NCBI GenBank assembly: GCA_026931325.1
Contig: JAIXLO010000058.1
Coordinates: 1 to 60,065 of the forward strand
Direction of reading: 5' to 3'
DNA length: 60,065 bases
Source of the DNA: Chitinophagales bacterium
Lineage (GTDB): Bacteria > Bacteroidota > Bacteroidia > Chitinophagales > Chitinophagaceae
Shown here piece by piece: positions 9,875-59,945 of the stretch. A program made the translations under genes and the position numbers. Below the pieces are notes generated by a model. That model made no database searches. It was given only the letters and a program-made list of their open reading frames with translations, and was not told the DNA's origin. The number at the start of each line of letters is the position of its first letter. Positions within the stretch are counted from its first letter, which is position 1.

Positions 9875-10528
9875 TTAAGATTCTATTAATCCGTGTTTTA
9901 CTGCATATAAAATTAAACCAGCAGTTGATTTTGCACCTGTTTTTACTTTTAATCTATCTCTAATAGCTTCTACAGTTCTTGGGCTTATTTCTACAATGTC
10001 TGCAATTTCTTTTGTACTTTTTTCTTCGCACATAAGTTTTAAAACATGAAGTTCTTTATCACTTAAATCAGCATCATCGTCTTGTTTTGGTGCATTGGTT
10101 TGTGTACGTAAACCTGTAAGCATTGCTCTATTAGTAAATTCATTAAAGAAAAATTCATTTTCAAAGCAAGTTTTTATTGCTTGATAAATAGTTTCACTAT
10201 CAGAATCTTTTGTAAGATAGCTATTAGCTCCAATGCCCATTAATTTTGAAATTAAAGTAACTTCATTATGCATTGTAAGCATAATAATTTTTACATCAGG
10301 CATTATTTTTTTTACTTCTGGTAATGTTGCAATGCCATCCATTATTGGCATTTGAATATCTAATAGAATCACATCGGGTTGTAAAAATTTCAACATATTT
10401 AATAGTTGCATTCCATTTTCAGCTTCTCCTAAAAACTCAATATCTTGTCTATGACTTAATGCAACTTTTACTCCTTGCCTGAATAAAGCATGGTCGTCTG
10501 TTATAATTACTTTTATTTTTTCGTTCAT
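9875..10528 (-). CDS. NarL/FixJ-family response regulator with LuxR-type HTH
   Basis: This 217-residue DNA-binding response regulator has a receiver domain at about residues 5-120. The phosphoacceptor is Asp57 in ILLDIQMP, the acidic pair is Asp11/12, and the conserved Lys is at 107 in YLTKD. A LuxR-type helix-turn-helix follows at 155-212 (DKELHVLKLMCEEKSTKEIA ... SPRTVEAIRDRL). No histidine kinase is adjacent, so the partner is unknown. Its upstream region carries a paired direct repeat inside an inverted repeat (10563-10646), and a probable divergent RNA gene begins about 200 bases away. Autoregulation or control of that RNA is a reasonable inference, not shown. Confidence 0.9.
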   Translation of the reverse strand: MNEKIKVIITDDHALFRQGVKVALSHRQDIEFLGEAENGMQLLNMLKFLQPDVILLDIQMPIMDGIATLPEVKKIMPDVKIIMLTMHNEVTLISKLMGIGANSYLTKDSDSETIYQAIKTCFENEFFFNEFTNRAMLTGLRTQTNAPKQDDDADLSDKELHVLKLMCEEKSTKEIADIVEISPRTVEAIRDRLKVKTGAKSTAGLILYAVKHGLIES

Positions 10529-10562: not shown

Positions 10563-10646
10563 TTGGGTAAAAATAGTAAAACTGAGTTAATTTACTACGA
10601 AAATATTAGAAAAACTACGAAGCAACTAATCTTATTTTTACCCCAA
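10563..10646. repeat. Inverted repeat enclosing a 20-bp-spaced direct repeat, possible operator
   Basis: TTGGGTAAAAATA (10563-10575) is mirrored by TATTTTTACCCCAA (10633-10646), an inverted repeat broken only by one extra C. Between the arms ACTACGAA occurs twice, at 10594-10601 and 10614-10621, exactly 20 bases apart, so both copies face the same side of the helix. It lies 35-118 bases upstream of the response-regulator start and upstream of the divergent RNA promoter. A regulator-binding site is inferred. Confidence 0.5.
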
Positions 10647-10691
10647 TGTTTTCATAAAACTGAATATCTCAAATTGGGAAGTTTTGCTCTT

Positions 10692-10720
10692 GTTGGGAAA
10701 TAAAGCTCAGCGTATGTTTG
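10692..10720 (+). promoter_or_regulatory. Candidate promoter of the + strand RNA
   Basis: The -33 element is GTTG at 10692-10695 (consensus TTTG) and the -7 element is TATGTTTG at 10713-10720, a full match to TAnnTTTG. The 17-base spacing is close to the 18 seen at the DUF3276 promoter in this window. Transcription would begin near 10727, with no coding region downstream on that strand. Confidence 0.55.
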
Positions 10721-10726
10721 CATTGC

Positions 10727-11033
10727 AATTTGATACAAGGTTTATATGAGTATTAAAAGAGTGTAGGTAAAAATTCCTAGAAACAACAACAACAAATCCG
10801 GAACCTAAGTAAACAATAAACCAAAGTATTAAAAAGCAAATGTGTTCAATAATCCTATAAAAGACTAAACCCGTTTTTAAGTGTCCAATTAATGAAAAAC
10901 CAAGGTGCTTACAGCCTAAAATGTAAGAAAGCCAATATCTAAAAAGGAAGAACCACAAAGTCCAAAATTCCTGGAAGTCATAAACGACCCAGGTTTTTTA
11001 AACTGGGTCTGATAAAAAAATCAGACCTTTTTT
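10727..11033 (+). ncRNA. Candidate free-standing non-coding RNA, about 305 nt
   Basis: The 508-base gap between the response-regulator and SRPBCC genes contains a promoter-like site (10692-10720) and a strong + strand terminator (ending at 11033), with no credible + strand protein between them. The interval is richer in G/C and more structured than other intergenic DNA here. A local hairpin at about 10901-10930 pairs CTTACA with TGTAAG, and AGGAA (10945-10949) can pair with TTCCT further on. The strand is A/C-rich in its middle (CAACAACAACAA). I do not see the hallmarks of RNase P RNA (GAGGAAAGTCC), tmRNA (3' CCA and tag frame) or SRP RNA. A divergent 6S-type RNA, as described in Bacteroidota, is possible. 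The longest + frame with an ATG is a 16-codon one at 10892-10942, not convincing. Confidence 0.45.
10986..11033 (+). terminator. Terminator with overlapping alternative hairpins
   Basis: The terminator stem is GGTCTGAT (11006-11013) with ATCAGACC (11020-11027), followed directly by a six-T run (11028-11033), so it works on the + strand. An upstream stem, GACCCAG (10986-10992) with CTGGGTC (11003-11009), shares bases 11006-11009 with it, so the two hairpins exclude each other. It lies just past the stop codon of the minus-strand SRPBCC gene and may also serve that gene, although the T-run there is poor. Confidence 0.75.
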
Positions 11034-11036
11034 ATT

Positions 11037-59873: not shown

Positions 59874-59945
59874 TAGCCCGTAGGGGAATCGAACCCCTCT
59901 TTCCTCCGTGAAAGGGAGATGTCCTAGCCGATAGACGAACGGGCC
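59874..59945 (-). tRNA. tRNA-Glu (anticodon TTC)
   Basis: The 72-nt gene on the minus strand folds as a normal cloverleaf. The 7-bp acceptor is GGCCCGT with ACGGGCT, the anticodon loop is CTTTCAC with anticodon TTC (+ strand 59910-59912) on the stem TCTCC/GGAGG, and the T arm is AGGGG-TTCGATT-CCCCT. The discriminator is A, and CCA is not encoded. A hairpin terminator follows. Confidence 0.95.

Follow-up and report, generated by a model that had tools for sequence, protein, structure and literature searches.

To our knowledge, little has been established about the route from two-component systems to post-transcriptional control in Bacteroidota. GacA is a two-component regulator of the NarL/LuxR type, LuxO controls the Qrr small RNAs (sRNAs), which have sigma-54 promoters and use Hfq, and RbpB belongs to the RRM protein class. 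Two reports describe RsmX, RsmY and RsmZ as paralogous sRNAs, one of them 110 nt long, with a palindromic upstream element and a repeated unpaired motif (PMC2375449, PMC7911923), and the second of these also counts five Qrr sRNAs (PMC7911923). For Bacteroides, a further report presents GibS and FopS as multicopy sRNAs that are partners of RbpB, share an unpaired stretch and end in a terminator, FopS having been deposited in Rfam (PMC11697453).

Here, we analysed a stretch of 60,065 nt from a Chitinophagales bacterium of the Chitinophagaceae (contig JAIXLO010000058.1; hereafter the window), which carries a predicted sRNA locus beside a response regulator (RR) gene. The family in which we place it resembles GacA-RsmX/Y/Z (CsrB/C) in its NarL/LuxR-type RR, a palindromic element upstream of family copies, paralogous sRNAs and a repeated motif that is predicted to be unpaired. 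It differs in that the motif is UCCA(A) instead of the GGA of Rsm/Csr, that CsrA was found in none of the 59 relatives searched (3 of 14 control genomes were positive), that many of the RNAs are encoded divergently from their regulator, and that Rfam gives no relation by sequence; common regulation and titration would be shared by analogy. The Qrr/LuxO system places paralogous sRNAs under a single RR, as is proposed here, with sigma-54 promoters there and a TAnnTTTG promoter here. As far as the available sections of the report go, GibS/FopS are alike in phylum, multiple copies, shared unpaired stretch and terminator, but those sRNAs base-pair, and the same sections describe no RR linkage (PMC11697453). 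A literature search, with most subscription papers out of reach, returned no description of such an RR-linked sRNA family. What is new is most likely the RNA family together with a Bacteroidota module of regulator and sRNA, and we are highly confident that the family is real and functionally linked to the RR.

A predicted RNA gene with its own promoter and terminator

A sequence-only reading of the window had proposed an independent + strand RNA gene of no catalogued family at this place, possibly a divergent 6S RNA. The predicted transcript (10725–11033, + strand, ~305 nt), which is conserved, takes its start from a −7 box and its end from a terminator. The box, TATGTTTG (10713–10720), which we take by name to be of the Bacteroidota TAnnTTTG promoter type, lies where that reading had put it and is also kept in relatives. 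The GTTG named as its upstream partner does occur at 10692–10695, 17 bases 5ʹ of TATGTTTG, but it is mostly absent from relatives, which keep instead a −33-like element, TGCTCTTGT (10685–10693), found in both the genus and the wider family. Further upstream on the same strand are a conserved pre-promoter block, ACTGAATATCTcAAAttGGGAAGTTT (10659–10684), and the boxes TTTACTA ... TTAG.AAAA.TACGAAG (10590–10623), which are conserved in genus copies and are candidate regulator sites. The strong hairpin followed by six T residues was confirmed as an intrinsic terminator, GGGTCTGAT/ATCAGACCT (11005–11033, + strand), with arms at 11005–11013 and 11020–11028 and its T-run at T11028–11033, and it is 100% paired in the genus alignment. 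On both strands of 4 kb, four terminator-like sites were counted against 1.3 ± 1.3 in shuffles. The predicted RNA (10726–11034) has a fold z-score of −3.0, with none of 100 dinucleotide shuffles equally good, which together with the conservation in the genus puts the element above chance, and hairpins are kept among the genus copies.

The interval had further been said to hold about 305 bases with no credible protein, and this agrees with the relatives: no protein is conserved across ~300 nt, and no + strand ORF of at least 30 aa was found within 10704–11036. An 83-aa ORF with a TTG start on the minus strand (10707–10958) would speak for a small protein gene, or for a spurious, non-functional spacer in place of an RNA. 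We rejected this ORF as a gene because open frames differ between copies and indels are mostly non-triplet (107 of 127 internal alignment gaps in genus copies are not multiples of three). With compensatory changes and the fold z-score also against them, both the protein and the spacer are hardly credible, and the window element is most likely RNA rather than protein.

When the region was searched against Rfam, no family reached its gathering cut-off; at E ≤ 10 the region gave just rimP, at 15.6 bits (cut-off 47) and on the minus strand. For 14 loci with relatives included (up to E 5 or 10), tRNA alone exceeded its cut-off. At gathering score, the whole window held a single match, a tRNA gene elsewhere (59874–59945, − strand). 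No match to FopS appeared either, in an Rfam copy that may lack its model. A divergent 6S or another housekeeping RNA (RNase P, tmRNA, SRP) would suit the length and the free-standing gene, and the 6S-Flavo model matched in none of the 10 genus genomes, though it also matched in none of 14 control genomes. Against this stand the lack of any Rfam match to E 10 save the sub-cut-off rimP on the other strand, the several copies per genome, the absence from two genus members and the RR linkage, so that the 6S suggestion did not hold up and a housekeeping RNA is very improbable. Conservation, hairpins, promoter and terminator anatomy and the absent Rfam match all support the independent gene of no catalogued family; it is most likely a real, uncatalogued RNA gene, whose promoter, terminator and RR are ordinary as parts.

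Conservation and secondary structure in the genus

With the window interval as query, matches were found in 11 of 59 relatives at E ≤ 0.01, the long ones all within the genus; those in G005, G041 and G051 were merely 22–26 nt long. With the second copy as query, the element proved to be conserved in 8 of 10 genus species, and the genus members G004 and G005 are without the RNA and without the RR. Two copies each are present in G000, G006, G007 and G008, that is, in at least four species, and matching halves in G002 are located at four contig ends. The second copy of the window's own genome (G000:C5:15166–15569) is 73% identical and convergent with a 1138-aa ORF. Aligned across the genus, the copies keep the promoter block and the terminator, and between these lies a body rich in A in which brief words are conserved. 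The genus 3ʹ-end pattern gave 10 loci across genome contigs, all in Bacteroidota, Chitinophagales or Chitinophagaceae MAGs.

In the genus RNAs, helix P1 pairs UUUGAUAC (10729–10736) with GUAUUAAA (10826–10833), with one compensatory U-A to C-G change (G009) and one break (G006C83). A hairpin GUUUUU/AAAAAC with UCCAAU in its loop (10873–10900) is paired in 95.5% of cells, with no two-sided change. At 10908–10927, single-sequence folds of 11 copies predict a variable hairpin, CUUACA/UGUAAG. Each of the 11 RNAs forms it although the sequence of its stem differs widely between them, and this predicted hairpin is the best sign here of selection for pairing. For the four helices together, 98.3% of cells in the genus alignment pair, against 34–54% after sliding the partners, and at one pair of the terminator stem both bases are changed in two sequences. 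Covariation across the genus alignment is thin: two pairs in the genus alignment have a two-sided change, a number reached by 13 of 500 shuffles, the covariation score is 0.081 against 0.082 for the structure slid by +3, and further pair types in the alignment showed no excess over shuffles.

At the 3ʹ end, the hairpin CCUG/CAGG (10970–10993, + strand) partly excludes a second one at 10986–11009 (by eye), and hence the terminator. Three partly exclusive hairpins can be drawn within 10970–11028, namely CCUGG/CCAGG, CAGGUU/AACnGGG (by eye) and the terminator, and linked GGTC/GACC to GGCC/GGCC changes are seen in G001 and G009. These partly exclusive hairpins of the window RNA could be a folding switch.

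A response regulator beside the RNA and a wider RNA family

The gene divergent from the RNA (9875–10528, − strand) encodes an RR of the NarL/FixJ type with a receiver and a LuxR/GerE HTH (Pfam Response_reg 3.4e-26, GerE 9.6e-12). Its score lies below the NCBIfam UvrY/SirA/GacA equivalog cut-off (125.3 bits vs 280), and the best NCBIfam model, MctR, also stayed below its own (146.7 vs 300). An ortholog was found in exactly the 8 of 10 genus species that have the RNA, and in the window, G001, G003, G006, G007, G008 and G009 one RNA copy is divergent from this same RR. Matches to the RR at E ≤ 1e-60 were present in 25 of 60 Chitinophagaceae genomes, the window's included.

At 19 of 26 other RR loci (among which L076 and L087 yielded an identical upstream stretch), the promoter block and an RNA of ~115 nt lie upstream and divergent. 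The ends of this RNA, AAGUUGAUUG and CAAUCAACUU, are paired, and the internal words AUCCAAUGUCC and ACCGUCCAG form unbroken stretches that hardly vary among 19 aligned family RNAs. R1, a covariance model built on this RNA and used at E ≤ 0.001, matched 65 of 195 family genomes, with one to eight matches per genome (weaker matches included) and at least two in 54. The RR at E ≤ 1e-75 was present in 74 of the same genomes; both were found in 61, the RNA only in 4, the RR only in 13 and neither in 117. The Fisher p of 1.8e-32 takes no account of phylogeny. Five of the 13 RR-only genomes (G000, G006 and G007, and G099 and G178 of a sister genus) carry a long or intermediate RNA of their own. R1 matched in 21 of 248 genomes drawn from the order and in 2 of 247 drawn from the class, every match falling within the window's family, under filters that become stricter above 40 genomes and miss weak matches.

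The last 3 of the 80 R1 matches, a 28-bit one and two that lie antisense to strong ones, were excluded from the motif, openness and neighbour counts and kept in the stem test. As the other 77 include one copy twice, neighbours were counted over 75 distinct copies, and motif and openness over 77. In an alignment of 78 distinct matches that is fitted to the tested structure and includes weak and antisense rows, the terminal stem pairs in 99.9% of cells, with four two-sided pairs where shuffles gave 0.1; displacing the stem by one to three columns left 1–53% of cells paired.

Among the 75 distinct copies, 33 lie within 600 bp of an RR ortholog (>55% identity) and divergent from it, and another 17 are divergent from a different LuxR-type RR that is 44–47% identical to the first; beside the other 25 no RR was detected, some of the flanking stretches being short. 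The RR link of the sRNA family is strong. The position beside RR genes, together with the partly exclusive 3ʹ hairpins, could also suit a long leader or regulatory transcript that acts in cis on a neighbour or on the RR gene, for example through attenuation by overlapping hairpins, and the next downstream gene is codirectional with the RNA in G001, G003 and G009. Such action in cis is improbable, since, among the 13 genus copies examined on that side, the window's included, 10 have a convergent downstream gene, and since the 25 family copies without a detected RR neighbour still keep the promoter block.

In several genomes, the locus comprises RR1/RNA1, RR2/RNA2 and a HisKA_3 kinase with a further RR. 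The stretches L179–L184 hold clusters of at least two LuxR-type RR genes, two of them with a divergent RNA copy of their own, plus HisKA_3 kinases. It seems that RR and RNA are duplicated together.

The window RNA as a probable long variant of the family

The window RNA has the promoter block of the family and its position divergent from the RR. On the genus RNAs, R1 gave nothing above chance, and a hairpin terminator takes the place of the AAGUUGAUUG/CAAUCAACUU stem; because R1 does not find them, the genus bodies are not family members by sequence. The best local match of the family profile in the genus bodies reached 4 bits or less. In 7 of the 11 bodies no more than 10 of 200 shuffles equalled it, in two others 19 and 32 did, and the G006C28 and G009 RNAs had no match to the profile.

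The sister genus g90 (G099, G178) has RNAs of ~140 nt, intermediate in length. In nhmmer searches, its promoters match a genus-only profile at 1.8e-15 and 1e-7, and its 3ʹ hairpin/terminator module does so at 4.3e-9 and 1.6e-10. The g90 gene order joins the family-side neighbours, which we take by eye to be photolyase and aminotransferase IV, to the genus-side ones, presumably Nif3 and a zinc-ribbon protein. A further model, R2, was built with the g90 sequences included, so its g90 scores (2.1e-10 and 2.5e-8) are not independent; outside the genus and sister genus it matched in 7 genomes at E 6e-4 to 9e-3, which may be due to chance. The genus RNAs are thus tied to the family by the promoter block and divergent position, by the g90 bridge and by the repeated UCCA. 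Judged from these comparisons, the window RNA appears to be a long variant of the family, the bodies sharing little beyond the repeated, predicted-exposed UCCA, and the step from ~115 to ~300 nt under a kept promoter would be a case of sRNA body turnover.

In G099 (L160, 1432–1620), a second RNA-like stretch lies in tandem. It has a promoter of the same type, a terminator and the words CCGTTTTTTAAATCCAATTCC, and by eye it looks like the window RNA's middle module. This hints that the long RNA arose through fusion of neighbours.

Upstream elements of the RNA copies

Promoter spacing and operator sites were counted over 74 family copies (33 linked to the RR and 41 others), one copy with a short upstream stretch being excluded. 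Measured from TGCTCTTG, TAnnTTT lies at a distance of 28 in 61 copies, of 26 in 9 and of 27 in 2, and it was not found in 2. A fixed TTAC-N10-GTAA element is common to copies near and far from the RR: anchored on TGCTCTTG, TTAC at −46 together with GTAA at −32 occurs in 19 of the 33 linked and 13 of the 41 other copies, and the pair occurs in no copy at 79 other offsets. With two mismatches allowed, the counts rise to 32/33 and 33/41, against at most 3 elsewhere. TACGA is concentrated around −68 and −90. None of the 13 copies from the window's genus has the −46/−32 element; TACGA lies instead at −68 in 11 of the 13 and at −69 in one, and in the window it begins 69 bases before TGCTCTTGT. Family copies share a fixed inverted repeat that may correspond to the upstream element of Rsm/Csr sRNAs; the window's genus lacks the repeat there and has other boxes. 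By analogy with NarL/LuxR proteins, which recognise inverted repeats, and from the position of the boxes, we infer that the RR would bind them.

Repeated UCCA(A) and the proposed function

The window RNA carries UCCAA at 10884–10888 (by motif count) and, within a conserved TCCAAnAtTCC region, at 10961–10965 (by alignment and motif count), both on the + strand; with two TCCA in all, the window copy is motif-poor. TCCAA occurs 150 times in 77 family RNAs against 35 expected, at least twice in 55 of them, and 40 times in 11 genus RNAs against 9.9 expected, at least twice in all 11. It ranks fifth among enriched 5-mers in the family, behind ACCGT, GTCCA and others, and seventh in the genus, behind TATCC, CGTTT and others; several of the other enriched 5-mers are parts of the same conserved words. 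In 61 of 77 family and 11 of 11 genus RNAs, TCCA is predicted to be more open than its letters are at other positions.

We propose that the phosphorylated RR would bind the upstream elements (TTTAC-N10-GTAAA in the family, and TACGA boxes that are present also in the window's genus) and activate all RNA copies together, and that the RNAs, exposing repeated UCCA(A) in unpaired stretches, would titrate an RNA-binding protein off mRNAs. Such a circuit would follow the scheme of GacA and RsmX/Y/Z, with another motif and a partner other than CsrA. We favour titration for two reasons: what persists when the body changes is a set of short repeats and no contiguous seed, and the anatomy is like that of GacA-RsmX/Y/Z. 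As CsrA was not found in the relatives, the titrated partner would be new. An RR-activated sRNA family that works like Gac/Rsm and titrates a protein other than CsrA is, in our judgement, evenly balanced between right and wrong. The fuller picture is more tentative and falls somewhat short of an even chance: a CsrA-free, Gac/Rsm-like switch in part of the Chitinophagaceae, with a NarL-type RR, one to eight sRNAs per genome acting as UCCA sponges and one lineage, the window's genus, whose RNA is more than twice as long. In such a conserved RR-sRNA module, the motif would serve as bait for the RNA-binding protein, and the promoter element is a candidate operator of a known regulator gene.

Two candidates were rejected. 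A CsrA-type GGA reading does not fit, the repeated motif being UCCA(A) and CsrA not having been found in the 59 relatives. RRM proteins as the specific partner were set aside because all 10 genus genomes have them, also the two that lack the RNA.

Base pairing, the mode of GibS/FopS, is a serious rival to titration: the sRNA would be RR-activated and Qrr- or FopS/GibS-like, with AUCCAAUGUCC and ACCGUCCAG as seeds near mRNA start codons. The near-invariance of these contiguous stretches suits seeds, RRM proteins are present in 50 of 59 relatives, and FopS and GibS of Bacteroides are base-pairing sRNAs, FopS having 14 copies (PMC11697453). Targets were sought in 400 kb each of one RNA-positive and one RNA-negative genome. 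The strongest duplexes of the core with gene starts reached −32.4 in the RNA-positive genome against −27.6 ± 2.1 for shuffled cores, with no excess in the RNA-negative one, but four of the five strongest fall in heptamer repeat arrays. Neither the motif nor its complement was clearly enriched at 297 gene starts of the RNA-positive genome; when 12 words and their complements were counted there, the highest were CCAATG (11 vs 4.2 ± 2.4) and TTGGAA (11 vs 5.9 ± 2.2), excesses that could arise from the 24 tests made and from the repeat arrays. In the window's genus, moreover, the seed stretch is not preserved and just short words persist. Base pairing is on the doubtful side, and titration remains the reading that we prefer.

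The first 400 kb of contig C1 of G029 (L193–L212) contain many heptanucleotide tandem arrays, often as inverted pairs, with the units CATCCAA, CTCACGT, TTCACTA, ATTCACG and AGCTAAT. Period-7 arrays number 84 in these 400 kb against 8 in 400 kb of G030, and the CATCCAA unit resembles the sRNA motif.
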